Virus record (IMG/VR): IMGVR_UViG_3300027905_000020
Span: 1 to 28,772 of that record
DNA: 28,772 nucleotides
Origin: a virus
Strand: one strand, 5' to 3'
Shown here one piece after another: positions 8,301 to 28,574 of this stretch (its first letter is position 1; each line of letters begins with the position of its first letter). The position numbers and the translations under genes were made by a program. A model generated the notes under the pieces. That model saw only the letters and a list, made by a program, of their open reading frames with translations, ran no database searches and was not told the origin of the DNA.

Positions 8301-9013
8301 ATGCGTACTCGGCAACCAAGGGGTCCTATCCCCATGCCTGCGCGACCAAGAAGTCGATCGCAAACGTGAAGGGTGTCGGCGTCGTCTACGCGACGTTCGA
8401 GGGATTGGTCGCAATCTCCGGGCCGGGCAAGGAAATCATGCTCACGGAGCAGCTATTCACGAAGCGCGAGTGGCAGGCACTCAACCCCTCGAGCATGATT
8501 GCGGTCGTCAACGACAATCGGTACTTCTGCTTCTACTCCGCTAGAGGATACGCGGGAGGCTTCTACATCGACATGGACTCGCAGAGGTCCGCTGGCAAGG
8601 TAAGCCTGGGCTTCCACGCTTACACACGCTTCAACGATCCGCTATCGGACAACCTGTACCTCGTGCTGGACGAGGACTACCTGGGCCTGGACATTTCGCT
8701 CAATACGATCGTGACCTTCGACTCGGACACGCTCAACCCGTTGCCGTTCGTGTGGAAGTCCAAGCAGTTCTACGTCGATCATCCGCTCGCGTATTCGCAG
8801 TGCCGCGTTAAGTCGGACTCCTACGCGAATACCACGATCACCCTGTTCGCTGATGGGCAGGCATACGCGACTCTGCCCGTGACCTCGGGCAACGAGTTTG
8901 CAATTCCGCGACCGCCGAACGGCGTCCTGTTCCAGTACTTCGAGTTTCAGATTCAGGGAACCGATAGAGTCAATCGCGTCCAGTTCGTTGAGGACGGGCA
9001 GGAGTGGACCTAA
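5381..9013 (+). CDS. Large tail nozzle-like protein with lectin-like insertion
   Basis: A 1210-residue protein starting at GTG 5381, with GAGG at about 5373. The N-terminus (FKGEAPRLAPRSLPNQMGQNSENARLLSGDVDTW) has the signature of podophage nozzle/stabilisation proteins, the functional counterpart of T7 gp12. The family's C-terminal part is seen from about residue 905 (LPNGIYAGFFGNTICLS, DYPIVGIAAMDAAVIVCSEK, SYPHACATKKSIANV). Between them are extra segments: about 525-760 resembles a concanavalin-like beta sandwich (LVENFNNPVQWTLS ... VTMEVEFALSF ... YLDFYVGMDA), and about 765-806 a fibronectin-III-like strand set (YVYTLLNDLGEESGPSPAS). T7 gp12 is about 800 residues, so this is roughly 400 longer. 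The insertions could display surface- or glycan-binding domains on the tail. Confidence 0.78.
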   Translation: MTIDVSDFKGEAPRLAPRSLPNQMGQNSENARLLSGDVDTWYGFSESTTQPIVVDPLTIYYLAEEVWLTFNSTPNAGGNVFQKLWESNLGTPFWVPTVGDPYFNGSVSNLIPAILGNDGNVIRIIDYKTGTTNTATTGPIAGPPVGDGYIWQVDPVSGGTATSRAAGAQEAAIFGSAYFGVGAAASYPGVGNYMAQWQENDIACELANGLLVLVTWRGTEIIGGVSTSGYAGLFTINSVGTQVVVYDIIPALSGSPGYLNATFPCADGVHLIVLTGNGINAGATAWHLVACGAAGATEIATGAWSTGPEALNGDPAYVGGGSSDGPTTWSESSENTIAMLESFTATATTYYLWLVCGGARLGYCLSLTNGSNYTVIHHWDGTGTNFCMVQNQAAHGVPSSSVWADAGQCAILIGNYMAMWQRAQNGATANVITASEADIEKAAISGDVSFRTYFCGTDAPRFTDIGLASGRTAGGNPVTGSASLGAGFPGNGPFPIYSRKIGVPNPTFVPTVTPVQASAGSTISTLVENFNNPVQWTLSTATLQDSNFASTGGYPAGDALHLQSIGGEAYGYKNFAVDPTQAVTMEVEFALSFAANCYQGQGYLDFYVGMDASGQGTCIRVYINSASNAVAGSSNVLIEFCPVTGFVIGAALSTTTIASGSIPTWNGTGYYIGPFQGSLYNQAVITIGAPSAAGVSAMSITIKTVNGAGNFVTATGLTASYASCPNNGSTYGVQAFTAPGNSIPYWFSVNYDNFTIIGTTPLTAAASEATAYVYTLLNDLGEESGPSPASAVITRNLGYGVNVTLPASLSQAGVDSTYFQGGSAYIPKVQNAISFNPGGPSPGINLYRLVTSSSGGTQFLLVASDLPMGQTYLDIIADSALSEVIPSYFTLNGVIGTWDVPPTNMLGILALPNGIYAGFFGNTICLSAQGIPHAWPLIFQQTVDYPIVGIAAMDAAVIVCSEKYPYVFYGQTPDAYSATKGSYPHACATKKSIANVKGVGVVYATFEGLVAISGPGKEIMLTEQLFTKREWQALNPSSMIAVVNDNRYFCFYSARGYAGGFYIDMDSQRSAGKVSLGFHAYTRFNDPLSDNLYLVLDEDYLGLDISLNTIVTFDSDTLNPLPFVWKSKQFYVDHPLAYSQCRVKSDSYANTTITLFADGQAYATLPVTSGNEFAIPRPPNGVLFQYFEFQIQGTDRVNRVQFVEDGQEWT

Positions 9014-9973
9014 ATGGCAAGGGCCGGATTCCCCGCGGTTGCCATTCCGCCGAGTGCTGCGCGCGATGTCCAGATCGCGGTGCAGAATATCCGCGCGCGT
9101 CTCGAGGCTCTTGAGTCAAGTTATGCTCCATCGAAAACGGTAAACGCGCAGATTGCCTCGGTCTCGGCGCAGATCGGGACAAGCTCTAGTTCCTCGTCTT
9201 CGTCCGGGATAGCGGACGCCCTCAGCAATGGCATGACCTACGGACGCGAGAATGCGTCCTGGGTGCAAGTGCTGCCGCAGCCGATCGCGAGCAGCACGAA
9301 TGCTGCATACGACATCGTTTTCTACGACGGCACGAGCGCCGCGCTTATCTCCAGCGCACTGACTTTCAACCCGTCCACCGGCACTCTGCAAGTCACTGGC
9401 ACAAGCGGAACAGCACTTTACACATCTGGTGCTGCCCTTGGTGGAACGATTGGAAACACATCGTCAGTTGCTAACTTCAACTACAAGTCAGCAAACAACG
9501 ATCAGCTTCAGCTTTATGGATATAGAGCAACAACCGGAACATCGTGGACCAATGCTCAACTACGCCTTGAAAAAATCGTAGATGTCACCCACCAAGGCTA
9601 CATCTACTTTGGTGATGGTGGAGTAGGAAGCCCGGCAGGAACGGCAGGGCTTATCCTCGGTAGCACTGGCAAGGATGCGCTTTACATCAACACTACGGGT
9701 AACGTCAGCATCCCTGCACCATCGAGCGGAACAGCATTGACAGTTGATGGCAGCGCGCAGACGGGAGCGCTAACCGTTACTGGCAACGAGAATGTGACGG
9801 GAACGCTGACCGTTACGGGCGATGTGCTCGCGCCCAACATCCTGAACTTCACGGCGTCCGCGAGCGCCCCAGGAAGCCCGAACGTCGGAGACCGCTGGGT
9901 GAACACGAGCAACGGCGTTCAATATACGTGGTTTAACGACGGCAGCGGCAATCAGTGGGTCCAGTTCACGTAA
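9014..9973 (+). CDS. Tail fibre-like protein
   Basis: A 319-residue protein whose ATG directly follows the preceding stop (TAAATG), with AGGAG at 9000-9004. The N-terminal 50 residues form a helix (DVQIAVQNIRARLEALE) that may anchor it to the tail. Residues about 56-64 are a serine run. Residues 100-260 consist of beta-strand repeats typical of trimeric fibres (STGTLQVTGTSGTALYTSG, SGTALTVDGSAQTGALTVTG, NVTGTLTVTGDV). The C-terminus (GSPNVGDRWVNTSNGVQYTW) is a short motif that recurs at the ends of phage fibre proteins. Codons 130-196 are markedly AT-richer in third position than the rest. Host binding is the expected role; the receptor is unknown. Confidence 0.75.
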   Translation: MARAGFPAVAIPPSAARDVQIAVQNIRARLEALESSYAPSKTVNAQIASVSAQIGTSSSSSSSSGIADALSNGMTYGRENASWVQVLPQPIASSTNAAYDIVFYDGTSAALISSALTFNPSTGTLQVTGTSGTALYTSGAALGGTIGNTSSVANFNYKSANNDQLQLYGYRATTGTSWTNAQLRLEKIVDVTHQGYIYFGDGGVGSPAGTAGLILGSTGKDALYINTTGNVSIPAPSSGTALTVDGSAQTGALTVTGNENVTGTLTVTGDVLAPNILNFTASASAPGSPNVGDRWVNTSNGVQYTWFNDGSGNQWVQFT

Positions 9974-11940: not shown

Positions 11941-12119
11941 TCCTTCACGAACTATCCGACTTGCAGATCCAGGGGCACCTTAACCTGGCCCGACGCTCGT
12001 GCGAGAACATGCGCTGGGACCCGTTCCTGTGCCGGGACGTGCGCAAGGAAATCACCTACCTGGAGGACGAGCTAAAGCGCCGGCACCCGGGTATTCCCTT
12101 CCCGACCGTGTGGCCGTGA
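11937..12119 (+). CDS. Small hydrophilic protein of unknown function
   Basis: A 60-residue protein. ATG 11937 overlaps the preceding TGA (ATGA); an upstream in-frame TTG at 11916 is less likely. The sequence is helical and charged (LHELSDLQIQGHLNLARRSC, then VRKEITYLEDELKRRHPGI), compatible with a short coiled coil. It is coupled to the fibre cluster and precedes the ejection-protein genes. Role unknown. Confidence 0.6.
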   Translation: MILHELSDLQIQGHLNLARRSCENMRWDPFLCRDVRKEITYLEDELKRRHPGIPFPTVWP

Positions 12120-12144
12120 CGGCGTTTGCTGGCTCTGGTATCAT
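12116..12144 (+). promoter_or_regulatory. Candidate promoter before the ejection-protein block
   Basis: GTGACG (12116-12121) and TATCAT (12139-12144) are spaced by 17 bases. The first matches TTGACA at four of six positions and the second TATAAT at five of six. The site begins the 114-base gap between the fibre block and the gene at 12234, the longest gap in this part of the window. This is a sequence match only. Confidence 0.35.
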
Positions 12145-12153
12145 CCCGGAACG

Positions 12154-12261
12154 GTGAGTGCTTACTACCGTCTAGGTCCGATTCCGCTCGCCTGGCGAGT
12201 AATCGGTGGCGTCTCTAGCCCCGAGGTCATCGAGTGGGATTCTTCAGCGGAAGCACGGTAG
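12154..12261 (+). CDS. Possible 35-residue ORF in the 12120-12233 gap
   Basis: GTG 12154 to TAG 12259-12261 is open for 35 residues beginning MSAYYRLGPIPLAWRVIGG. It overlaps the start of the next gene by 28 bases and has only a weak GGA upstream. Third positions are about half GC, below the local norm, so it may be chance. Otherwise the gap holds the candidate promoter and nothing else I can see. Confidence 0.25.
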   Translation: MSAYYRLGPIPLAWRVIGGVSSPEVIEWDSSAEAR

Positions 12262-12944
12262 GGCCGACCCCGGCGGAACAGCAGCTAGATGCTGCGTTCC
12301 AGCAGTCGTATCAGGTCTACCAGTCTACCTACCTGCCCGTCCAGCAGCACTTGACGAGCGTTCTCACGTCCATGAACCAACCGAACTCCTGGGAGCGTCA
12401 GGAGGCCGAGGGCAAGGGCAACGCCGACGTAGCTGACGCCTTCGCGCGGTCGGACGCGCAGCAGACGGCGAACGAAATGGACCGCGGGATCAACCCGAAC
12501 TCCGCGGCCTTCAAGCTCGGAGCGACCGGCTCCGCGGTGGCGGAAGCGAACCAGAAGGGAACGGCGATCAATGCCGGCAACGAGGCGATCGACAAAGCCT
12601 ACCTGTCCGGCCTGTCCAGCATCGCGGCGGCTGGCTCGAGTCTTGCCCAAACGGCCGGTGGCGCGCTCGGAGCGGCCGGAGAGGTTGGGAGCCGGGAAGC
12701 GATCACGAACGCCAACGAGTCGAACACGGTCAACGCGGCAACCATGAGCGCGGTCGGGCTAGGGCTTGGCGCGGCCGGCATGGCGGAGTTCAGAACTCCA
12801 CCCGCTCCACCCGATCCTGGCGGCGGTGCGGGCATTAACGTGGACACTAATAGTCTCTATACCCAAACGATGCAGAACGTTCCTGGCCTTGCGCAGTTTT
12901 GGGATCCCACAAATTCATCCTTCTTGGGGGTCCTCAAGCAATGA
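12234..12944 (+). CDS. Internal virion (ejection) protein, small paralogue A
   Basis: A 236-residue protein starting at GTG 12234, eight bases after GAGG. Residues 13-48 are helical with YLP at 33-35; EMDRGINPNSAAF (residues 81-93) is followed by long Ala/Gly helices (AVAEANQKGTAINAGNEA onward), and an Ala/Gly-rich hydrophobic stretch lies about 125-180. The R-GI-P-S motif and the helical Ala-rich body are typical of podophage internal proteins ejected with the DNA. The C-terminus (TPPAPPDPGGGAGINVD) is flexible. The next gene appears to be a shorter paralogue. Injection role is inferred from pattern and from lying just before the giant internal proteins. Confidence 0.65.
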   Translation: MGFFSGSTVGPTPAEQQLDAAFQQSYQVYQSTYLPVQQHLTSVLTSMNQPNSWERQEAEGKGNADVADAFARSDAQQTANEMDRGINPNSAAFKLGATGSAVAEANQKGTAINAGNEAIDKAYLSGLSSIAAAGSSLAQTAGGALGAAGEVGSREAITNANESNTVNAATMSAVGLGLGAAGMAEFRTPPAPPDPGGGAGINVDTNSLYTQTMQNVPGLAQFWDPTNSSFLGVLKQ

Positions 12945-13638: not shown

Positions 13639-15402
13639 ATGTATGGAATGAACGGCAATTTCGGCGGAATGCCCTACCAGTCCCCAGCGGCTTCGCTCAC
13701 TGGCGGGATCGAGGCCGGCATTGGCATCGTGCAGAACCAGCAAGCCCTGGAGCAGCGCACTGCGCAGGCAGCGCAGGATCGGCAGGACCGGCTTGACCAG
13801 CAGCAGACTGTGAACCAGCAAAGGGACACTGAGTTGCGGATGCAGCAGGCGCGGGATGATATGACAAACCGTCGCTTGGATGATGCCGAGCAAAAAAGCA
13901 ACATCCAAGAAGCGCAGGCAGGGCTAGATGGAGAGGTCGCGCAACTGCGTCAAGTTAGTCAACAGCGCCTAGCCGAAGCCGGTAACGATCCAAAAAAGAT
14001 CGACCCGGATGCCTTTGCCGGAGATCAAGCCAAATGGGCCGACATCAACAGGCGTCAGACGGCAATCAACCAGGCGCGTGGCGGGGCTTTTTTGAACGGT
14101 CAAATGCAGATCGCTAACCAAACGGTCAAGCAGATGTCCACGGACCCAACGTACCTCGATAACCCTGCCAATGCGGATAGCATCGCGCACGCGATTACGC
14201 TCACGACGCACATGGATGGTGCGAACTTCCTGCGCGGCCCTAACGGGCAGTCGAACTTTGAAGCGCAGCAGGACGATTTCAACAAAGCGTTCAGCACTCA
14301 GGACCTACCGCTGCTGGGCAAAGTCATGGGGACCATTTTCAAGCCGCAACTGGAGGCAGGCAGGCTCGGGATGTATGACCCGCTGGGCGGGCTCGTCAAC
14401 GATGTTAGCCTGCACGGCACGCAACCGCTCGTGCCATCACCGCATGGTCAGTCCATGATGCCGGTGCTATCGGTCACTGGCACGCACCCGGACGGCTCTG
14501 TGAGCACGCAGCCGGCGGCATTCCCTGCCGCGGCCGGATTCGCGCATGATGACAACCAAGAAGGACATACGATCACCCCCGGCGACCTCGCGGCCCACAT
14601 GGGAAATCTTGGGATTGTCCAGGCGATCGTGAACTCGCACCCTGGCGTGCAGGCTGCTCTGCGCGCGAGCGCGGCCAACCCGAATCCGATCACGCAAGAC
14701 GCGGCGGCTTTCTACACGATGCTCGGCGCCAAGGCGGATCACTCGACGCTCGAAAAGATCGGGGAGAGCGAGCGCCTTGTCTCGATCCCTCGGGATGCGC
14801 AAGGAAACCCAACCGGCCCTCCTGTAGAAGTCCTCGCGCCTACTCCGCTCGCGCAGCGCAAGGAAAACGCTGCTCTCTTGGAGTTTAAAGCCGGGCAGTC
14901 TCTTGTCGGACAACCGCATCTACGCCCCGATGAGGAAGGGCCGGGCAACTATACGCAGGCCGAAGTGAACGGCATTCAATCACACATCCTGCCTCGCGCC
15001 AAGGCGCCGACTGCTTCTGCCGCGCGCCTGAGCGGAGAGGATGCGGCTGCACAAGTCGCAACGCAGCAAGGCGTGCACTTCGACGCGCAGAGCGGAGCGT
15101 GGCGACACGACGCGGACGGCAAGCAGTTGAGCCAAACCGAGGCAGGCGCTCTACAGCACCAGATCGACGCGGCAAAGGCGGCCTCGCATCAGCAGGCAGG
15201 ACTAGGACCAGTGGCCGGCAAACAGGCCGTAACAACGGTTCCTACTGACCATCCTCCAGGTTCGGTGGGTGCTCAGTACCAGGTATATCCCGCCAACCCT
15301 GCTGATCGAGTCATCGGCCAGCAGTATCGCAATCAAGGCGGCGGCGTAGCGACCTGGACGAAGACTGGATGGGTTCAAAATGCCGCCCCAGCCGCTCACT
15401 GA
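13639..15402 (+). CDS. Internal virion (ejection) protein with coiled-coil N-terminus
   Basis: A 587-residue protein after AAGGGA. Residues about 30-115 are a Gln/Arg/Asp-rich coiled coil (LEQRTAQAAQDRQDRLDQQQ onward). The middle (about 150-400) is mixed helical with DPTYLDNPANADSIAHAITL, FEAQQDDFNKAFSTQDLPL and TPGDLAAHMGNLGIVQAIV. The C-terminal 150 residues are Ala/Gln-rich and end in a short beta motif (QYRNQGGGVATWTKTGWVQN). The ORF overlaps the giant downstream gene by 23 bases, implying coupled expression. Such proteins in podophages form part of the internal core and translocate DNA. No enzymatic motif is visible. Confidence 0.68.
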   Translation: MYGMNGNFGGMPYQSPAASLTGGIEAGIGIVQNQQALEQRTAQAAQDRQDRLDQQQTVNQQRDTELRMQQARDDMTNRRLDDAEQKSNIQEAQAGLDGEVAQLRQVSQQRLAEAGNDPKKIDPDAFAGDQAKWADINRRQTAINQARGGAFLNGQMQIANQTVKQMSTDPTYLDNPANADSIAHAITLTTHMDGANFLRGPNGQSNFEAQQDDFNKAFSTQDLPLLGKVMGTIFKPQLEAGRLGMYDPLGGLVNDVSLHGTQPLVPSPHGQSMMPVLSVTGTHPDGSVSTQPAAFPAAAGFAHDDNQEGHTITPGDLAAHMGNLGIVQAIVNSHPGVQAALRASAANPNPITQDAAAFYTMLGAKADHSTLEKIGESERLVSIPRDAQGNPTGPPVEVLAPTPLAQRKENAALLEFKAGQSLVGQPHLRPDEEGPGNYTQAEVNGIQSHILPRAKAPTASAARLSGEDAAAQVATQQGVHFDAQSGAWRHDADGKQLSQTEAGALQHQIDAAKAASHQQAGLGPVAGKQAVTTVPTDHPPGSVGAQYQVYPANPADRVIGQQYRNQGGGVATWTKTGWVQNAAPAAH

Positions 15403-18400
15403 CGAGCAGTTTGAGGGCTTAGCGCCAGCGCAACCTGCTGCCTCCGCCCCTCTTGGTGGCGGGATGTCGGACGCCGACTTTGAGAGGGTGACGCCAACGC
15501 GGCAGATGGGGACGGCCGAGACGGCTGGCCGCGACGTGGTAGGCGATCTCGTCCCGATCATGCGCGGCGGGATGATGTTCGCCGCATCGGTGGCCGGAGA
15601 GGCTGCGGACCTCAATAATGCGGCCGCGGCTGGCATGAAAGGCATCGGCCTTGACGTTCCCACCATTGACAAGGAGCGTGAGCAAGACGGCATCTTCGCT
15701 GCTATGGACAGGACAACGACCGCGATGCGCGAGTTTGCCGCGCCCAAGAACGCCGAAGGAACGGTGACGGGGCATGTGCTCGGCGCGCTCGAGAGCATCC
15801 CGGCCGGCATGTTATCCGCGGCCGGCGGCTTCGGCGGTATCGACAAGGCTCTCGACGTAGTTCGACACGGCGGAACGGTAGAGGATGCTGCCCGTGCCGG
15901 CATTACGCAGGCCGCTTTCGATGCCGCTACGACCCTCATAGAAGTGGGGGTGGCGGCGAAGGCTGGCGCCAAGGCGGCGGGCGCGGTCGCGAAACCTCTG
16001 GCGACGGCCGCGGCTGGTGGCGCTACTGGCATCTTGGGTGGCGCAGCGGAGCGGGCTGGAGAGAATGCCGCGCTGCCTTCCGGAGAGCAGTTCCAGGACA
16101 TGCGCCAGAACGTGCTTCCGACCTGGAAGCAGGGGATCATGGAAGCCGGCGGCGGCGCGTTGTTCGCGCTCGCCGGCGCATCCGAGGCTGCGTACGCCAA
16201 ACGCATCGCGGATAAGGGGCGGCAACCCCCCGCTCCCCAGGCCGGACTATCCCCAGCCGATCAGATGCGTGTGGCGGTTGGTTTGCCGCCCCTTGGCGAG
16301 CCCGGGAAGGCCCCTACGGGCTTCGGTCCCCCCGAGGCTGGCCCTGGCGAGGTAGAGCACATCGAAGCGGCGCCAGCGCCCGCAGAAGGCCGCTACGGTG
16401 GCGGATTGAACCTCGCACCAGGAGGTCCGGAGCGCATTACCGCGGCTCCAGCGCCGCACTACGTCGAGTTTGAGGGTGCCGCGATCCCGCAGCCGGAGCC
16501 CCGGCCCGGAACCGAGGGCATGACAGTCCACGAGGGCGAGCACGTAGAGGCCGCTCCGGCGCCCCCGTCGAAGGAAACCGGCGTCGAGGGCATGGCGGCG
16601 GAGCCCGTCGAGAACGTCAAGGGCGCTCCGGCGCCGAAGGGCGAGGCTCCTGGGCTGGCCCCCGAGGAAGGCGAGCAGATCGAGGGCGTGCCGTACAAGA
16701 GCCCGCGCCAGATCGAGCTAGAACGCAACCTCGAGCAAGCGGAGACGCCTGGCGCGAAGACGGTAATCCGGGCGGAGATTGCGAAAGAGAAAAAGATCCA
16801 GGCCGACGCCGACTCGGCGGACGAAATGCGCGACCTTGCGAACCAGACGAAGGACCCGGTGCTCGCGCAACGGCTGCGTGAGAAGGCTGATAAACTCGCA
16901 CCAGCGGCGCCCCCGGAAAAAGAGGGGACTGCGCCCACCGGCCAAGAAACAGAACCTACTGGCGGCGTCGCTACCACCGAGTCCAAGCCGATCGGTGTTG
17001 GCTCGTCTCCATTCCTGCGCAAGATCGTCGAAGACAACGGCGGCATCCATCCTTCGGAGGCCGCGGACCTGGGGCTCGACCCCGCCAAGTCGCGCAACAT
17101 AATGATCGGCGGCAACGCCAAGGGCTCGCTCGTGCGCCGCGCTGGCGCGCGCATGGACCAGCTTACCGAGTGGGCACAGCAGAACGGCTACCTGTCCGAA
17201 AAAGACATACACGATGCGGACAACAACCTTCCCGGCGGATCGCACGAACTGACCCGGCAGTTGATCCGCAACGAGCTTGCCAAGCCCGGCTCCACGATGC
17301 CGCTCCGCGACCAGTCGCACATGTTCGACGTGCTGCGCGAGCACGCGCGCCAGCAGGGAATCGTTGAGCGCGCCGAGCAGGCCGGCATCGAGACCGGCAA
17401 CCGCCCCATTGAGGACATCGAGAATGATCTTTATAAACATGAGGACCAAGCGCACGTCGAGGGGCATGGGCTCGATGTTGGGACGCACGCCGAAGGGCTG
17501 GGTGATGTCCACGCGCTTGCGCAGCGGCCCGGCGGCGAAGACCTCATCGAACGGCTCGCCGTCAAGCATGGGGATGACTACGACGGATTCATCAAAGAAG
17601 TAAGGGAGAACCTGAATGGCAATCGGACACCAAATGCTGGCCGCGGCGCAGTCAATGAGCCCGGACCAGGTGGCGCGAATGAAAAACCAGCAGTACGTGG
17701 CGAGCCTGAAGGCGCCCCCGCAAATAGAGCCGGTGAAAACCCCCTACGGAATCAACAACGCACTGAGCCCGCTGAAGCCGGGGCAACTCCTGAAGCCGGA
17801 CGCCCGATTCAACCAGCCGGGGCCGAGCGCGGAAATGAGGCCGCAGCCGGCGAAGGAAAACCTCTAGGCAGAGTAGTCACAGAGGCGGAGCGCCAGCGCA
17901 ATCCGAACCTTGAATTTAAGGGCGAAGCTCCGGACCCGAAGGCCGCAGAGACGATGCAGCTTCATACGCGCATCGTCAAGGCCGTGATGGACGGCCTTGG
18001 GCTCGGGAAAATCATGCGCAACGTGAAGTATGTAGTTGATAGCACGCTTGCGGAACATAATTGGGACGGCCTCGCAACCCTGTATCCCGATGGTTCGCGC
18101 AAAATCAGCATCAATCCAATCGCGCTCGCCAAGAGCGCGGTAGAGAGGATCGCGCATGTTTTTCTGCACGAGCATGGGCACGCCCTCGACACGGGTGAAA
18201 TATATTCGAGCGACCCGGCACTGAAGTTCGTTAATGTCATGCGCGACGGCAAGCCTTTCGTGGAAGCTGTAGGGCAGGCAGCGAAGGAGGTCGAGGCGAT
18301 CTGGAAGAACCATATCAAGGGCGGGGAAATGTACGACTACCCGCTGAAAAATGCGCGGTCTGGTGCAGTCTTCCCGGAAGGCTATGCAAATGCCGGCAAG

Positions 18401-21358
18401 CCGATGTATGACGCCCAGGGAACTCAATCGGAAGTTTTCGCTCAAAACTTCTCGTACTACAATCATCCTCTATACAAGGAGATTCTACGAAATGAAGCCC
18501 CAACGGCCTACAAACTCATCGAAGACGCCATTGCTCACGCCAAGGAAAACGGCCCCCTCCCCGAAGGCGGCAACCTCGGACGCTGGATCGCAGTCAATAA
18601 AGACACCTTCGCCCTCGGACGAGACGACCTCTCCGCTGCCCGTAGCGCTGGGCGATCCGCCGGAGGCTTTTCCAAATCTGGAACCGGGCTTTTTGAACAA
18701 GTCGAACGTGTCCAGCCGCGACCTATCGAGGCTGCACGAACTGAGGGGCCAAATGCAGGACGAGGCGAACCAGAGCGGGAGCCCGGACGAGGAAGCCCGG
18801 TTGAGCGGTTCCGGAGTGCAGTAGAGACGCTGCGGCAAAGCCCGATCGTCCAGAAGGCGCAGGCCCTCGCGGAGCCGCTGATCCGCGATTTCCAAAACAA
18901 GGTCTCGCCCATGACCACGGGCTCCGATCGATCGCAGGCGATGGCGAAGGACTTCGCGAGCTCGATCCGCGAGGCGGCCGTGAACTATAACCACTTCCAC
19001 GAAGTCCTCACCGAGAACTTTACGCCCGAGGAAAACGGCCGGATGTGGGAAGCCGGCGACGAGGAAAACGATAAGCGCATGGCCCAGGCCAAGCTTGATG
19101 CGGACACGAAAGCGTCCCCGATGGAGCGCAGCCTGCGGCAGGACCAGATCAACCGGCAGTTCGCCGGCAAGGGAATTGACTCTCTGCCTCCGCAGCAGAA
19201 GGCGGTCATGGATTTCCTGAACGAGCACGGGCAGATGCTCCTGGATCGCGCCCGGCAGGCCGGCATGTACGAAGGCTCCGGCGTCCCGTACTGGACCCCG
19301 CGCGTGGCCGCGATGATGGGCGAGGACGGCGAGCTTGGGAAGCTCACCGAGGGCGAGGGTGGCGGCAAGAGCGCCCTGACCACGACCTCCCCGAACCTGA
19401 TCGGCCGAAAGTACGAGACCACGCTGGAGTCTGAGCAAGCCTTGAAGGCCAAGTTTGGCACCGGCGCCGGATACGTCAAGGACATCCGCGTTATGCCTCG
19501 CGCCATGGCCCGCCTCGAGCGCGCGATTGCCGGCCGCGAGTTGGTCAACAAGATCGCGGATCTGTCGCAGGAAATGGCGATGGACCCGACGCAGTTCACG
19601 ACGTTCGATCACCCGGCACTCAAGAGCTACAGGGCCGAGCCGCAGCCTGACGGCACGGTGAAGTGGAGTATCAAGCAGCGCATGATCCCGAAGGAGTTTG
19701 AAGGCCCGCTGAAGGCGGTCCTCACGCAGCCCTCTGGTGCGATCTACAAGGGCCTGCTCGCCATGAAAAACGCGGCAACGTCCATCATTATGAACTCGCC
19801 GTTCATCCACTTGGGAGTGGAGGTCGGCCGCGCGCTGCCGGTCATGGGCGGCAAGATGGCTACGGTCTCGTTCTGGAAGGATGGCAGCGCCATGCTCAAG
19901 GACCTGCCGACGATGCGCCGCTTCCTGCAAGCGGGCTACGTTCCGATCGGTCGGCAGAATCTCTCCGAGGATCTTGGGGCGATGATGCGTGAACCAGAGT
20001 TGACACCCGGCCGCAGCATCACCGCGAAGCTAGTCGGTGGCGCCGTGGGGCTCGTGAACAAGGGAGCCGGGCAGGCGGTCAAGGGCGCTATCGACAAGGC
20101 GGGCGACTTCGTACACGGCACGCTGCTGTGGGATCGCGTCGCGCAACTACAGGCTGGCATCGCGGTATCCCTAGAGCGCCAGATGATCGCGGACGGCATG
20201 GACCCGAGGGCCTCTACGTTAGTGGCCGCTCACATAGCAAACCGCTATGCAGGCGCTTTGCCGGCCGAGTCTATCTCGCAGAACGGTCGCAAGATCGCGA
20301 ACCTGCTGATGTTCTCCCGGTCGTTCACGCTGGGCAACCTTGGGGCAATGAAAGACACGATGACAGGCCTCCCGCAGGACGTGCGCGCGCAGCTTATGCG
20401 CGACGTGAGCGCGGACCAAGCGAACAAGGCTCTGGACTTCGCCAAGCGCAAGGCCCGGATGGGTCTGGTTGCCGACATCGGGATGCTCTACGGCATCAAC
20501 GCCGTCGCCCAGGCCGGCGCTGGCGTGTTCCAGAGCATGATGAAGGACAACAAGGATCTGCCGGAAGCCCTGGCGGCGCAGGGCGAGAAGTACTCGAACA
20601 TCCTCCATGACGCCATGACGCGCCTCGTGGAGCACCCAGTCCTGTCGGTGCTGCATCCGTTCGATACGATCCAATCCTTTCTGCCGCAAGCCACGAACGA
20701 GCCCGGCAAGGAGAACCGTGTCCTCATTGGACATTCCCCGGACGGCACCGCTCACTACATGCGGATTCCTCTCGGCAAGGTCGGGGAGGAAATGCAAGGC
20801 TGGATGACGAAGCCCGGCGAAATGCTCGACCGTAAACTGTCCACGCTCGCGAAGCCGGTCGTGCAGGGCTGGACCGGAGACCTTGGCTTTGGCCGGCAAC
20901 TCTACAAACCAAACGATGACGGGATGACCAAGGCCGGCGAATTTGTGATGAACTTTATGAAAGCCCAGGTACCTGCGGATCAGATCGAGGCCACCTATCG
21001 CACGCTGTCGGGCCAAGGGCAGGACATGGATCTTGCCAAGACGGTTGGCCCGCTGATGGGCCTCACCTTCAGCCAAGGGGCGCCCGGCGGCGAGGCGATG
21101 GGGGAACTCTACGCGGAACGCAAGGAACACGCGGCCGATCTTGCAGAGGCGGCGCCCGCCATCAAGCAAGCGATCAAGGCCGGCGACAATGACCAGGCCG
21201 AGAAACTGATGGACGACGCCCATCTGACGCCCCAGGAAAAACGCTTCCTGTATCATGCTGCTAGCAGTACCGGGCCGACGAAGACGCAACGTAGGAACTT
21301 CTTCGGCACCGCAACAGAGGACGAGAAGGCGCGCTTCGAGCACGCACAGGAGCAGTGA
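15380..21358 (+). CDS. Giant polyvalent internal virion protein with HExxH peptidase motif
   Basis: A 1992-residue protein from ATG 15380. Residues about 50-285 are Ala/Gly-rich and partly hydrophobic. Residues 326-440 hold five degenerate PAP-containing repeats. About 540-745 is a helical domain (NGYLSEKDIHDADNNLPGG). Residues 930-934 are HEHGH within RIAHVFLHEHGHALDTGE, a zincin-type active site. After a linker come long helical domains (about 1150-1960), including MKNAATSIIMNSPFIHLGVE, and a charged C-terminus. This modular build matches 'polyvalent' proteins of phages, which are packaged and ejected with DNA. The peptidase could cut envelope or host targets. Two linkers (17616-17867 and about 18666-18824) read poorly in this frame and well in +1. 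The adjoining ORF upstream overlaps it, and the holin gene follows directly. Confidence 0.8.
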   Translation: MPPQPLTDEQFEGLAPAQPAASAPLGGGMSDADFERVTPTRQMGTAETAGRDVVGDLVPIMRGGMMFAASVAGEAADLNNAAAAGMKGIGLDVPTIDKEREQDGIFAAMDRTTTAMREFAAPKNAEGTVTGHVLGALESIPAGMLSAAGGFGGIDKALDVVRHGGTVEDAARAGITQAAFDAATTLIEVGVAAKAGAKAAGAVAKPLATAAAGGATGILGGAAERAGENAALPSGEQFQDMRQNVLPTWKQGIMEAGGGALFALAGASEAAYAKRIADKGRQPPAPQAGLSPADQMRVAVGLPPLGEPGKAPTGFGPPEAGPGEVEHIEAAPAPAEGRYGGGLNLAPGGPERITAAPAPHYVEFEGAAIPQPEPRPGTEGMTVHEGEHVEAAPAPPSKETGVEGMAAEPVENVKGAPAPKGEAPGLAPEEGEQIEGVPYKSPRQIELERNLEQAETPGAKTVIRAEIAKEKKIQADADSADEMRDLANQTKDPVLAQRLREKADKLAPAAPPEKEGTAPTGQETEPTGGVATTESKPIGVGSSPFLRKIVEDNGGIHPSEAADLGLDPAKSRNIMIGGNAKGSLVRRAGARMDQLTEWAQQNGYLSEKDIHDADNNLPGGSHELTRQLIRNELAKPGSTMPLRDQSHMFDVLREHARQQGIVERAEQAGIETGNRPIEDIENDLYKHEDQAHVEGHGLDVGTHAEGLGDVHALAQRPGGEDLIERLAVKHGDDYDGFIKEVRENLNGNRTPNAGRGAVNEPGPGGANEKPAVRGEPEGAPANRAGENPLRNQQRTEPAEAGATPEAGRPIQPAGAERGNEAAAGEGKPLGRVVTEAERQRNPNLEFKGEAPDPKAAETMQLHTRIVKAVMDGLGLGKIMRNVKYVVDSTLAEHNWDGLATLYPDGSRKISINPIALAKSAVERIAHVFLHEHGHALDTGEIYSSDPALKFVNVMRDGKPFVEAVGQAAKEVEAIWKNHIKGGEMYDYPLKNARSGAVFPEGYANAGKPMYDAQGTQSEVFAQNFSYYNHPLYKEILRNEAPTAYKLIEDAIAHAKENGPLPEGGNLGRWIAVNKDTFALGRDDLSAARSAGRSAGGFSKSGTGLFEQVERVQPRPIEAARTEGPNAGRGEPEREPGRGSPVERFRSAVETLRQSPIVQKAQALAEPLIRDFQNKVSPMTTGSDRSQAMAKDFASSIREAAVNYNHFHEVLTENFTPEENGRMWEAGDEENDKRMAQAKLDADTKASPMERSLRQDQINRQFAGKGIDSLPPQQKAVMDFLNEHGQMLLDRARQAGMYEGSGVPYWTPRVAAMMGEDGELGKLTEGEGGGKSALTTTSPNLIGRKYETTLESEQALKAKFGTGAGYVKDIRVMPRAMARLERAIAGRELVNKIADLSQEMAMDPTQFTTFDHPALKSYRAEPQPDGTVKWSIKQRMIPKEFEGPLKAVLTQPSGAIYKGLLAMKNAATSIIMNSPFIHLGVEVGRALPVMGGKMATVSFWKDGSAMLKDLPTMRRFLQAGYVPIGRQNLSEDLGAMMREPELTPGRSITAKLVGGAVGLVNKGAGQAVKGAIDKAGDFVHGTLLWDRVAQLQAGIAVSLERQMIADGMDPRASTLVAAHIANRYAGALPAESISQNGRKIANLLMFSRSFTLGNLGAMKDTMTGLPQDVRAQLMRDVSADQANKALDFAKRKARMGLVADIGMLYGINAVAQAGAGVFQSMMKDNKDLPEALAAQGEKYSNILHDAMTRLVEHPVLSVLHPFDTIQSFLPQATNEPGKENRVLIGHSPDGTAHYMRIPLGKVGEEMQGWMTKPGEMLDRKLSTLAKPVVQGWTGDLGFGRQLYKPNDDGMTKAGEFVMNFMKAQVPADQIEATYRTLSGQGQDMDLAKTVGPLMGLTFSQGAPGGEAMGELYAERKEHAADLAEAAPAIKQAIKAGDNDQAEKLMDDAHLTPQEKRFLYHAASSTGPTKTQRRNFFGTATEDEKARFEHAQEQ
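16355..16690 (+). repeat. Degenerate protein repeat (E-[HRNQ]-x-x-[AG]-[AV]-P) in the giant protein
   Basis: Five related motifs begin at residues 326 (EHIEAAPAP), 351 (ERITAAPAP), 387 (EHVEAAPAP), 411 (ENVKGAPAP) and 432 (EQIEGVP) of the 1992-residue protein, spaced 21-36 residues apart. The intervening sequence is Gly/Pro/Glu-rich. This is a repeat of short linear motifs in a flexible linker, with no exact DNA repeat. Confidence 0.6.
17616..17867 (+). CDS. Nested +1-frame gene A inside the giant protein gene
   Basis: ATG 17616 to TAG 17865-17867 encodes 83 residues entirely within the 1992-codon ORF, one base out of frame. AAGGGAG (17602-17608) lies seven bases before the ATG. By my count 68 of its 83 sense codons end in G or C (82%), while the same bases read in the long frame give 36 of 83 (43%), the value expected of second positions. 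The product looks protein-like (QMLAAAQSMSPDQVARMKNQ, then PYGINNALSPLKPGQLLKPD), whereas the long frame here is low-complexity Gly/Ala/Pro/Glu. A TGA sits directly before the ATG in the same frame. Function unknown; no membrane segment. Confidence 0.6.
   Translation: MAIGHQMLAAAQSMSPDQVARMKNQQYVASLKAPPQIEPVKTPYGINNALSPLKPGQLLKPDARFNQPGPSAEMRPQPAKENL
18492..18824 (+). CDS. Nested +1-frame gene B inside the giant protein gene
   Basis: ATG 18492 to TAG 18822-18824 would encode 110 residues in the same +1 frame as nested gene A. AAGGAG (18476-18481) lies 10 bases before the ATG, and the frame is open further upstream. The last 52 codons (from 18666) have GC third positions in 40 of 52 (77%) against 23 of 52 (44%) in the long frame; further upstream the two frames are about equal, so the true start is uncertain. 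The C-terminal part (NKSNVSSRDLSRLHELRGQM onward) is hydrophilic and helical, and the N-terminal part is Ser/Thr/Pro-rich. Function unknown. Weaker case than nested gene A. Confidence 0.42.
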   Translation: MKPQRPTNSSKTPLLTPRKTAPSPKAATSDAGSQSIKTPSPSDETTSPLPVALGDPPEAFPNLEPGFLNKSNVSSRDLSRLHELRGQMQDEANQSGSPDEEARLSGSGVQ

Positions 21359-22435: not shown

Positions 22436-22936
22436 ATGACGATACTCGAAAAGTGGCTGTTCGTGCTCGGCGTCTCGCTGCTGGCCCTGGCCGGCATCTT
22501 CGAGTGCGGCCGGCTGTCGGCTTCGGCTAAGTACGAGGCACAGATCGCGTCCATTCAAGCCGCTCAGAAGCAAGCCCTAGCAGACGCCGAGGCCGAAAAA
22601 GCCCGGCTGCTCAGTCAGTACGCGCAAGCCGCGCAGGAGGTAAACCAAGATGCTCAGAAAACTATTGGCGATCAGTCTGCTCTCATTGGCAAGCTGCGCA
22701 ACGCCACTCCCACAATCCGTCTGTGTTCCTCCGCCGAAGTGTCCAGAGAACCTGTGCCAGCACCCAACGGACCAGGAGCTACAGCAGGCGATCGACCAAC
22801 TGCAAGCGGCCCGAGCACAGATCCAGAAATTGCGATCGACGCAGACTCCCTCGACACCGGCCTCGGCATCGCAATCGACGCCCTCAAAGCCGAGCAACTG
22901 AACCGTCAGTGGCTCCGCGGCACCGGGCAGTTGTAA
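22436..22936 (+). CDS. Rz: Rz-like inner-membrane spanin
   Basis: A 166-residue protein with an N-terminal membrane segment at about 7-25 (WLFVLGVSLLALAGIFECG) and a following coiled coil (about 30-80: YEAQIASIQAAQKQALADAE onward), the layout of i-spanins. The C-terminal half is variable and Pro/Ser/Asp-rich because the same DNA also encodes Rz1 in the +1 frame. With Rz1 it spans the periplasm and fuses inner and outer membranes in the last step of lysis. Assignment rests on topology, location and the nested lipoprotein. Confidence 0.85.
   Translation: MTILEKWLFVLGVSLLALAGIFECGRLSASAKYEAQIASIQAAQKQALADAEAEKARLLSQYAQAAQEVNQDAQKTIGDQSALIGKLRNATPTIRLCSSAEVSREPVPAPNGPGATAGDRPTASGPSTDPEIAIDADSLDTGLGIAIDALKAEQLNRQWLRGTGQL
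22650..22901 (+). CDS. Rz1: Rz1-like outer-membrane lipoprotein spanin nested in Rz
   Basis: An 83-residue protein fully inside the Rz gene, one base out of frame. ATG 22650 has AGGAGG (22635-22640) nine bases upstream. The signal peptide MLRKLLAISLLSLASC has a lipobox LASC with acylated Cys16. The mature part starts Pro/Cys-rich (PQSVCVPPPKCPENLC), continues with a short helix (QELQQAIDQLQAARAQIQKL) and a Ser/Thr/Pro end, typical of o-spanins. It pairs with the Rz product. Full embedding is known from lambda and other phages. Confidence 0.88.
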   Translation: MLRKLLAISLLSLASCATPLPQSVCVPPPKCPENLCQHPTDQELQQAIDQLQAARAQIQKLRSTQTPSTPASASQSTPSKPSN

Positions 22937-25741: not shown

Positions 25742-26039
25742 TTACGCCGAACTTCATGTGGTCAACCATCTGAATCGTCATCCAATTCACGTAACGCTGC
25801 CACTGATCACGGCGCCTCATGTCCGGCGCCATTTCACGCGCAACGGCCTCGCGCATGCGCCGGAGCCCTTGCGAATGGCAGCGTTGCAGATGGCGGATTC
25901 CCTGCGCTATGTGATAGCGAGCCTCGAACTCTTTGTCCAGGATCACAGTCTCTATATACATCCGAGCCCAAGCCTCGGGGGAAATCTCTGCACATTCCTC
26001 GAACCATTGTGTGCGGCCCTCGTCCGCCGGCTCGATCAC
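25731..26039 (-). CDS. Unknown helical protein in the recombination operon
   Basis: A 102-residue, charged, mainly alpha-helical protein (GRTQWFEECAEISPEAWARM, RYHIAQGIRHLQRCHSQGLR, DQWQRYVNWMTIQMVDHMKF). GTG 26039 overlaps the stop of the exonuclease gene (GTGA). No signal peptide or membrane segment. I do not recognise it; coupled translation with the exonuclease suggests a related role. Confidence 0.62.
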   Translation of the reverse strand: MIEPADEGRTQWFEECAEISPEAWARMYIETVILDKEFEARYHIAQGIRHLQRCHSQGLRRMREAVAREMAPDMRRRDQWQRYVNWMTIQMVDHMKFGVSER

Positions 26040-27733
26040 AGCAGCGTTACCACGAACTGCGTAGCCGAGACGTTGCGAACCGTGAACTCGCGGCCGGAGT
26101 CAAGGAGGTCGTGCAACTGCACGCGATGAGGATTGATCCCTGGATTCTTGACGACGCGAGTTGAACTTGCGTCAACCTTTGTAGAGAGATTCTTCTCCCC
26201 CTCTTTCCGAGTCTCTATCTTCGTCATACCGGCATCAACGGCGCCGACCTTGGGCGCCTCTTCCTGGCGCGCCTTTTTCTGTCGCATCTGCTCGGCCTGG
26301 AGCGCTCGGCGTTCCTCCGCCTCGATGCGCTGATTCTCCTTGCGCACTTCTTCCTGCAACCGCGCCTGTTCGGCCTCGAGCTTCCGGCGTTCCTCCGCCC
26401 GTATCTTCTCGCGCTCTGCCTCGGCTGCGGCCTCCGCGGCGGCACGCTGTTTCGCTAGGTAGTCGGCAACGCGCTTCTCGGCTATGGCCAGGCAAGACTC
26501 TGGCTCGCATCGCATTAGGCCCTGTAGGTCCCCGAATAAGAAAGGGTAGTCCTCACGCATAGCGGAGGTCGCGCGTAGGTTCTTGTCGAACAGATCGGCC
26601 TGTGCGTTCGCCGCAATCTTGGCGTCCGCTAGACACTGAGCGACCGCGGCCTTGATGCTATCGATGTTCTTCTTGCCCTTCACGGCCTCCGCGAATAAGT
26701 TGTCCCGCCCCGATTCGATGGTGATGGGAGCTACGCGCTCGCTCAACGCGCGGCAGTGCTCGGCCAGGGCTTGCTTGCCGGCGGTTAGAATCTCTGCTCG
26801 GCGCCGGATCTTCTCGGCGTCCACGATCTTGGCAAGCTCGAGGCGCTTCGACCTGAAGGTAGCGGCAATCTCGTCGCCGGCCCGGAACAGGGCATCCACG
26901 TCGGCCATCTGCGCCTGCACCGCGGCCTTCGTGACCTCCCAATTTTCCTCGCCGGACTTCAGGAACTTGACTTGGTTCTCGGCGTTCGAGAAGTCCTCAT
27001 CGGTTTCCAGGGTGGTCTTGATCTGCGCGATGAATGCCGCGGCCTCGCTGCGTAGGGCGGGGAGGTTCGAGCGCAGGACCTTGCCCTCAACCTGGACGGC
27101 GAGCGCCGGCAACGCGCGGATCACCGCGGCGGCAGGCTTCACCTTGATGTCCTCATGCTTGTACGCGGCGACGTCCTTGTTGAACTGATCCCAGGCGGCA
27201 ATCAGAGCCTCGCGGCGCTCTGGCACGGACAGGTACGGATGCCACACAGTATTCTCATCGGTCCCATCCGACACACAGAACAGAATGCAACCGGCGTCGG
27301 AAACAAGCAACTGGTGTTCCATCTGCCAGTAGTAGAGAGGGTCCAGCGCATCGAAATCTCCTGCCTCGAAGTACGCCAGGAGCGCGGCGTTCAGCAGCTT
27401 TACCTCCAGCCCGGTATCCTCCAGCATATTCAGGCCGTCGAAGCTCGCGAGGAATCGGCCGCACGACCCAATTACCGGATAGAAGTCATCGCCCGTGGCC
27501 GTCGAGACGACCGCACGCGCCTTGGGCTCGACCGCATGTCCGGCGTCCAGAACCTTCTCGCGAACGAAGTCCGAGAAGGTGCGCTCATCTCCCGTGGCTT
27601 TCATCCGCACGAGGTCGGCTCGAGTCATGTGCGGGCTCGCGCCCATGATGACCGGCGCCTCGGATGCGCAGTCAAACTTGAACCGAAGGGCGTCCCACTC
27701 GGGGGAGCCCTGCACTACGTCGTGGGTAATCAT
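26036..27733 (-). CDS. YqaJ-type recombination exonuclease fused to a long coiled coil
   Basis: A 565-residue protein, about twice the usual length for a YqaJ exonuclease. N-terminal PD-(D/E)xK nuclease motifs are clear: QGSPEWDALRFKFDCASEAP (8-27), GHAVEPKAR (65-73; Glu69), SFDGL (97-101; Asp99), GLEVK (108-112; Glu110 and Lys112) and WQMEHQL (136-142). Residues about 180-390 match the helical, charged pattern of the DUF1351-type protein found with phage recombination genes. Residues about 425-500 are a continuous Glu/Arg/Ala/Gln coiled coil, and the final 40 residues form a beta-rich end. It works 5'-to-3' on duplex ends to make single strands for Bet, encoded just upstream with a 4-base gap and a Shine-Dalgarno sequence inside the bet end. 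Confidence 0.88.
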   Translation of the reverse strand: MITHDVVQGSPEWDALRFKFDCASEAPVIMGASPHMTRADLVRMKATGDERTFSDFVREKVLDAGHAVEPKARAVVSTATGDDFYPVIGSCGRFLASFDGLNMLEDTGLEVKLLNAALLAYFEAGDFDALDPLYYWQMEHQLLVSDAGCILFCVSDGTDENTVWHPYLSVPERREALIAAWDQFNKDVAAYKHEDIKVKPAAAVIRALPALAVQVEGKVLRSNLPALRSEAAAFIAQIKTTLETDEDFSNAENQVKFLKSGEENWEVTKAAVQAQMADVDALFRAGDEIAATFRSKRLELAKIVDAEKIRRRAEILTAGKQALAEHCRALSERVAPITIESGRDNLFAEAVKGKKNIDSIKAAVAQCLADAKIAANAQADLFDKNLRATSAMREDYPFLFGDLQGLMRCEPESCLAIAEKRVADYLAKQRAAAEAAAEAEREKIRAEERRKLEAEQARLQEEVRKENQRIEAEERRALQAEQMRQKKARQEEAPKVGAVDAGMTKIETRKEGEKNLSTKVDASSTRVVKNPGINPHRVQLHDLLDSGREFTVRNVSATQFVVTLL

Positions 27734-27737
27734 CGGC

Positions 27738-28574
27738 TTATCCTTCCTCGCCCGGCTCGCGCTCCGCGTCCGGCCCAGGCAGCGCCTCTATCACTTCCTT
27801 CTGCTCCGCGGTGAGCGTGTAAAGCGTGCTCAGTTTCGCGATGATGTCTGCCGCGGTCTTTTTGCCGGCCCGGATCATCTTGCCGCCAGCCGCTAGGTTC
27901 AAGTCGAACTTCTCATGATCGCACGCCGGCAAGGCAACGACTGGCTCCGGGCCAGGAAGTTGCGGCGTATCTGTCGGCGTAACGTCTATGTACTTGCCTT
28001 CCATTTCTTCCGCTGTCGGGGCGGCTGCGATGTCCGGGAATGCCTTGCGTAGCGCCTGGGCCTCGGTGCACTTGGCAAGCTGCCCGCGCGGGCGCTTTTT
28101 CCACATCGCGTTTGGCGCGATCGTGTCGCGACTGGCGGTAGCGTAGTTCTCCACCCAATATTCTATTGCAGAAAAACTACACTTCTCCCCGTTCACGATG
28201 CGGTAGACCGTGACCCTGCACCACTCCGGGTAGGTAATCTGCACGCCTTGCAAGTTGTCTTCAATCATCGGGCCGAACTCAGGCTCCGTGACGCCAGCAA
28301 ATCCGCCGGAGCGCGACGCCTGCGTGCGGTATAGGTTGACGCCGGGCATGATGACATCGCGCTTTACGAACTTGTCGCCAACCTTGACCGACATCGGGAC
28401 GATGTAGACCGGCTTCTGAAGCGGGTCCAGCTTGGCGGCGCGGCAGTAGTTCACGACCAGCGCAATGGACTCCAGCTTGGCGCCAGGATAGAGCGAGGAT
28501 TCGAGGATGGCAAACAGCTTTTCCTCGGGCAGCGCAAGCGCGCCCTGCTCTACTACGGTAAGATCGTTTGACAT
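27738..28574 (-). CDS. bet: Bet-family single-strand annealing protein
   Basis: A 278-residue protein; ATG 28574 follows AGGAGA. It carries hallmark segments of the lambda Bet/RecT group: NYCRAAKLDPLQKPVYIVPM (42-61), DVIMPGVNLYRTQASRSGGF (73-92), and WKKRPRGQLAKCTEAQALRK (158-177) followed by AFPDI. The C-terminal 80 residues are linker and an acidic tail (GPDAEREPGEEG), which in such proteins can contact host SSB, though I cannot show that here. It anneals single strands produced by the exonuclease next to it. Length fits the family (lambda Bet 261 residues). Confidence 0.92.
   Translation of the reverse strand: MSNDLTVVEQGALALPEEKLFAILESSLYPGAKLESIALVVNYCRAAKLDPLQKPVYIVPMSVKVGDKFVKRDVIMPGVNLYRTQASRSGGFAGVTEPEFGPMIEDNLQGVQITYPEWCRVTVYRIVNGEKCSFSAIEYWVENYATASRDTIAPNAMWKKRPRGQLAKCTEAQALRKAFPDIAAAPTAEEMEGKYIDVTPTDTPQLPGPEPVVALPACDHEKFDLNLAAGGKMIRAGKKTAADIIAKLSTLYTLTAEQKEVIEALPGPDAEREPGEEG

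Follow-up and report, generated by a model that had tools for sequence, protein, structure and literature searches.

Among phages, the Rz/Rz1 spanin genes overlap, with the small Rz1 nested in the +1 frame of Rz, and in the D/E pair of the microvirus phiX174 two proteins are made from one sequence, with codon usage telling which of the two frames is the older (PMC8227390). The usual criteria for recognizing the older frame of an overlap are codon usage and phylogenetic spread (PMC8227390). Another comparison is offered by the very large phage polyvalent proteins that have zincin-like metallopeptidase domains (Iyer et al. 2017, PMC5512222); they are modular, carry an HExxH motif, and change domains between relatives. 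Neither "overlapping" nor "linker" appears in the text of that article. A further point of reference is phrog_2423, a PHROG family of small basic phage proteins. Our searches of the open-access literature returned no description of the nested-slot arrangement that we report here.

The window (the whole stretch of 28,772 nucleotides that was analyzed) is a contig of an uncultivated virus whose head genes match PHROG head families. The features on which the following analysis centers are:

15380–21358, plus strand: long host gene, 1,992 amino acids, with HEHGH at residue 930
17602–17608, plus strand: Shine-Dalgarno sequence AAGGGAG of the nested gene, within long-frame codons (...KEVREN...)
17615–17869, plus strand: long-frame segment over the nested gene, residues 746–830, a Gly/Ala/Pro/Glu linker
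17616–17867, plus strand: nested gene A, 83 amino acids, ATG to TAG, in the +1 frame of the long gene
18167–18181, plus strand: HEHGH motif of a predicted metallopeptidase-like domain, downstream of the slot

Like Rz1, the small gene of this locus is read in the +1 frame of a gene that encloses it, but Rz1 is a lipoprotein and the lysis partner of Rz, whereas gene A sits in a virion gene at a slot that in relatives can hold unrelated genes. No signal peptide or lipobox is visible in the gene A protein when its sequence (MAIGHQMLAAAQSMSPDQ...) is read directly, and it contains no cysteine. The window also has a second nested gene, of the classical type, in a likely Rz/Rz1 pair, namely, an Rz-like gene (phrog_312) at 22436–22936 and a +1 nested, lipobox-bearing, lipoprotein-like ORF at 22650–22901 (MLRKLLAISLLSLASCATP...). 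In phiX174, the internal gene, E, is regarded as the later arrival, whereas at the present locus it is the long frame that looks newer and the internal gene that looks older. The long protein resembles the polyvalent proteins in its very large size, its modularity, its HExxH motif, and the change of domains among relatives, but its Pfam ATLF match is weak (E 0.024) and below the cut-off, which does not establish domain membership. The long gene probably encodes a large protein of multidomain virion or polyvalent type. Finally, phrog_2423 proteins are small and basic, occupy the same nested slot in relatives, and sometimes stand in tandem with gene A, but the gene A protein does not match the family, and elsewhere phrog_2423 has relatives that are free-standing or that form the N-terminus of a head maturation protease.

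Gene A and its signals

The initial annotation had described an ORF at 17616–17867 that ends in its own TAG, with a Shine-Dalgarno sequence seven bases ahead of its ATG and a TGA directly before it, and all of these elements are present as described; the TGA is in frame with the ATG. Its hand count of third-position GC content (GC3) was reproduced as well: across the 83 shared codons, the value is 0.82 for the nested frame and 0.43 for the long frame. The predicted product has a pI of 9.8 and the tail motif PGPSAEMRPQP, and the long-frame linker is acidic (pI 5.5). AlphaFold modeled helices at residues 4–12 and 16–32 of the gene A protein, followed by a largely coiled tail, at a modest confidence (pLDDT 73, pTM 0.33) that is too uncertain to support a fold search. 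A frameshift product is an unlikely source of the small frame, given the in-frame stop ahead of the window's ATG and the start with a Shine-Dalgarno-like sequence that is common to the family described below.

Homologues of gene A are all nested

Repeated rounds of searching, including records reached via the major head protein, yielded homologues of gene A in 19 other uncultivated phage contigs (20 records with the window), and every one of them sits inside a long ORF, in the +1 frame. The first homologue found is 59% identical to the 83-residue protein, without gaps and likewise nested, while the long proteins of the window and of that contig are only about 29% identical over their alignable region. 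Where the record is long enough, the host ORFs comprise 881 to 3,112 codons (one record, L140, is cut at its edge). The family has in common the tail motif GPTAxxRPxP, or one near it, and its lengths are mostly 52 to 89 residues. Close homologues have 52 to 63% protein identity and keep start and stop; each of the 17 listed members begins with ATG or GTG and has a stop of its own, with a purine-rich, Shine-Dalgarno-like sequence ahead in nearly all. L110, whose likeness is at the N-terminus only, was not counted.

The initial annotation had also suggested a search for the 83-residue product as a stand-alone gene. None was found in the loci examined, annotated phages, plasmids, or species genomes. 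Searches of annotated phages, plasmids, and bacterial genomes turned up no relatives of gene A, the weak phage and plasmid hits looking like chance, and comparisons with Pfam and PHROGs gave nothing significant. Among cultivated relatives, the family is absent from the fetched loci of Rhizobium phages RHph_TM3_14A and RHph_N3_13 and of HMO-2011, CRP-9, and HTVC115P. By sequence, no solved relative was found in the PDB; a match to Flattop (E 0.018) was taken as a low-complexity chance hit.

Selection in the two frames

A comparison of rates in both frames had likewise been proposed, with conservation confined to the long frame, or loss of the nested start or stop in relatives, named as evidence against the small gene. 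What we found was the reverse, since conservation lies in the nested frame and a start and a stop are kept in the family. Over 11 pairs, pN/pS in the nested frame was 0.26 to 0.52, indicating purifying selection, and in the long frame inside the overlap it was 1.35 to 2.11, indicating no constraint; control long-frame codons upstream of the overlap gave 0.28 to 0.85. Differences across the overlap fall mainly at nested third positions, and nested identity is far above what long-protein conservation alone would lead one to expect. Because the alignment behind these 11 pairs had been made in the nested frame, we repeated the test on long-frame alignments, where, in six of six pairs, no part of the gene had a lower ratio than the overlap windows.

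Base composition shows the same pattern. Long-frame GC3 was lower in all of the 22 overlaps considered (17 carrying a member of the window's family and 5 in which the slot has a different nested ORF), with a mean drop of 0.29 (Wilcoxon p = 5e-7), and nested GC3 across the overlaps was near or slightly above the genome norm.

At first glance, an open +1 frame might be expected by chance in GC-rich linker DNA. When the long protein was held fixed and synonymous codons were shuffled, the +1 frame remained open in 49% of trials, so the length of the ORF is by itself unremarkable. What exceeds chance in the nested ORF is its inverted GC3 and the conservation of its frame. The identity among close homologues, the retained start and stop, and the purifying selection in the nested frame also stand against a chance ORF, which the selection tests (the 11-pair pN/pS comparison and the six of six pairs on long-frame alignments) refute and to which we give virtually no credence. 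From these sequence comparisons, the 83-codon ORF is very likely a real, functional small gene.

A different possibility is that the small frame alone is translated, with the long ORF corresponding to two separate proteins and its open frame in the overlap being a by-product of composition. The missing constraint on the long frame inside the overlap would fit this, as would the fact that, in ordinary genes of these phages, this frame is open more often than the other alternative frame (0.286 vs 0.139 over 83 codons). Against it, the long frame is uninterrupted in every record, although with random nested codons it would be open in only 5 to 54% of cases per record (figures that ignore kinship), and the overlap is flanked on both sides by constrained long-frame sequence, as the initial annotation had noted when it stated that the long frame codes on either side. 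We therefore conclude that the long reading is kept as well, and consider an untranslated linker very improbable; both proteins are probably made. The description of residues 746–830 as Gly/Ala/Pro/Glu filler is borne out by an acidic linker whose sequence is unconstrained but whose reading frame is open in every record.

The slot in relatives

The same site carries other genes, or none, in related phages. The following records illustrate its tandem and empty forms:

L153, 1501–1644 and following: tandem nested pair, phrog_2423 type and then gene A family (L156 likewise)
L103, reverse complement 12036–12440: empty slot
L104, reverse complement 8738–9142: empty slot

In L109, L113, and L114, the slot holds a +1 nested gene of phrog_2423 (E 3e-18 to 5e-20), a profile to which the window's nested protein has no match. 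In the relatives with these differing slot contents, the host long proteins share homology to either side of the slot. In L153 and L156, a gene of the gene A family directly follows the stop codon of the phrog_2423 gene, both in the +1 frame, and in L154 the two are both present but farther apart. L098/L155 have a gene A family member nested and the phrog_2423 gene free-standing, 12 nucleotides after the long gene. In L103 and L104, the same long gene has an empty slot, the linker is missing, and GC3 is normal. The slot proteins examined are all small and basic (pI 9.8 to 11.6). Because the host domains flanking the slot differ between subgroups, equivalence of the slot is firm only within subgroups.

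Elsewhere, relatives of phrog_2423 are ordinary free-standing genes in Pbunavirus, annotated as "virion protein" in one record, and in Acinetobacter phage RM_A1 a phrog_2423-like sequence (L146, 2501–2602) forms the N-terminus of the annotated head maturation protease.

In a single record, L101, the same slot contains a third, unrelated small basic ORF of 41 amino acids in the +1 frame (8760–8885).

Origin of the linker

Two histories could account for a selected small gene inside a long one. In classical overprinting, the long gene and its linker would be older and the small gene would have been born within that linker as a de novo +1 frame. Most internal viral overlaps have been described as a de novo +1 frame (PMC8227390), and the failure to find gene A free-standing is compatible with such a birth. 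However, it is the nested frame that has genome-typical GC3, the long-frame sequence is unconstrained in the overlap, the empty slot goes with a missing linker, and the alternative slot gene phrog_2423 is widespread as an ordinary gene. On this evidence, de novo birth within the linker is unlikely.

We consider it highly probable instead, on the strength of these comparative patterns, that genes for small basic late proteins have been swallowed by a growing multidomain virion protein and that the linker is their out-of-frame read-through. This history is most directly evident for phrog_2423; since no free-standing relative of the 83-residue protein was found, for gene A we infer it by analogy with phrog_2423. 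By the usual criteria, codon usage (through GC3 only) and phylogenetic spread (for phrog_2423 only) suggest that the small genes predate the linker. The initial annotation had called the gene "overprinted" and had offered capture or read-through into a linker, or production of both proteins, as explanations. The latter proposal is supported by the relatives, with their nested conservation, open long frame, exchanged slot genes, and empty slot; the former term would fit better in the opposite sense, as it is the long protein's linker that has the look of the more recent reading.

Under the swallowing history, the small frame would be the older and selected frame in the overlap, and the long protein would have gained its linker by reading out of frame through at least one neighboring small gene, joining the flanking domains. 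The read-through would have used the frame in which stops are rarest, and the greater openness of this frame in ordinary genes helps to explain why the frame is constant, while shared ancestry may explain the remainder. Selection would then hold the linker open and hardly constrain its sequence. A single late mRNA would probably yield both products: translation from the start of the long gene would give the long protein, and internal initiation at the nested ATG behind AAGGGAG would give the small basic one.

Viewed across the records, it seems rather likely that one lineage of tailed phages possesses a slot for nested genes, in which unrelated small basic genes are exchanged, singly or in tandem, with the long frame always reading through in the same shifted frame. 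Gene swallowing, not de novo birth of the small gene, would then be one route by which large modular phage proteins acquire linkers and join domains. As for the role of gene A, its position in the virion region, the relatives of phrog_2423, and its charge suggest a head or virion function; its product is most likely a small, basic accessory protein of the head or virion, one that perhaps binds nucleic acid or acts together with the long protein in assembly.

Overlaps are usually explained as a new small gene inside an old large one, and the comparative evidence here points the opposite way. Because relatives show the site filled, exchanged, doubled in tandem, and empty, the question of origin is testable. 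A corollary is that the linkers of giant phage proteins may be relics of neighboring genes. In practical terms, conserved virion-region genes of this phage lineage probably escape gene callers in which large overlaps are forbidden.

In another part of the window, genes for a RecE-like/YqaJ exonuclease and a RecT-like annealing protein lie adjacent to each other on the minus strand (26036–28574).
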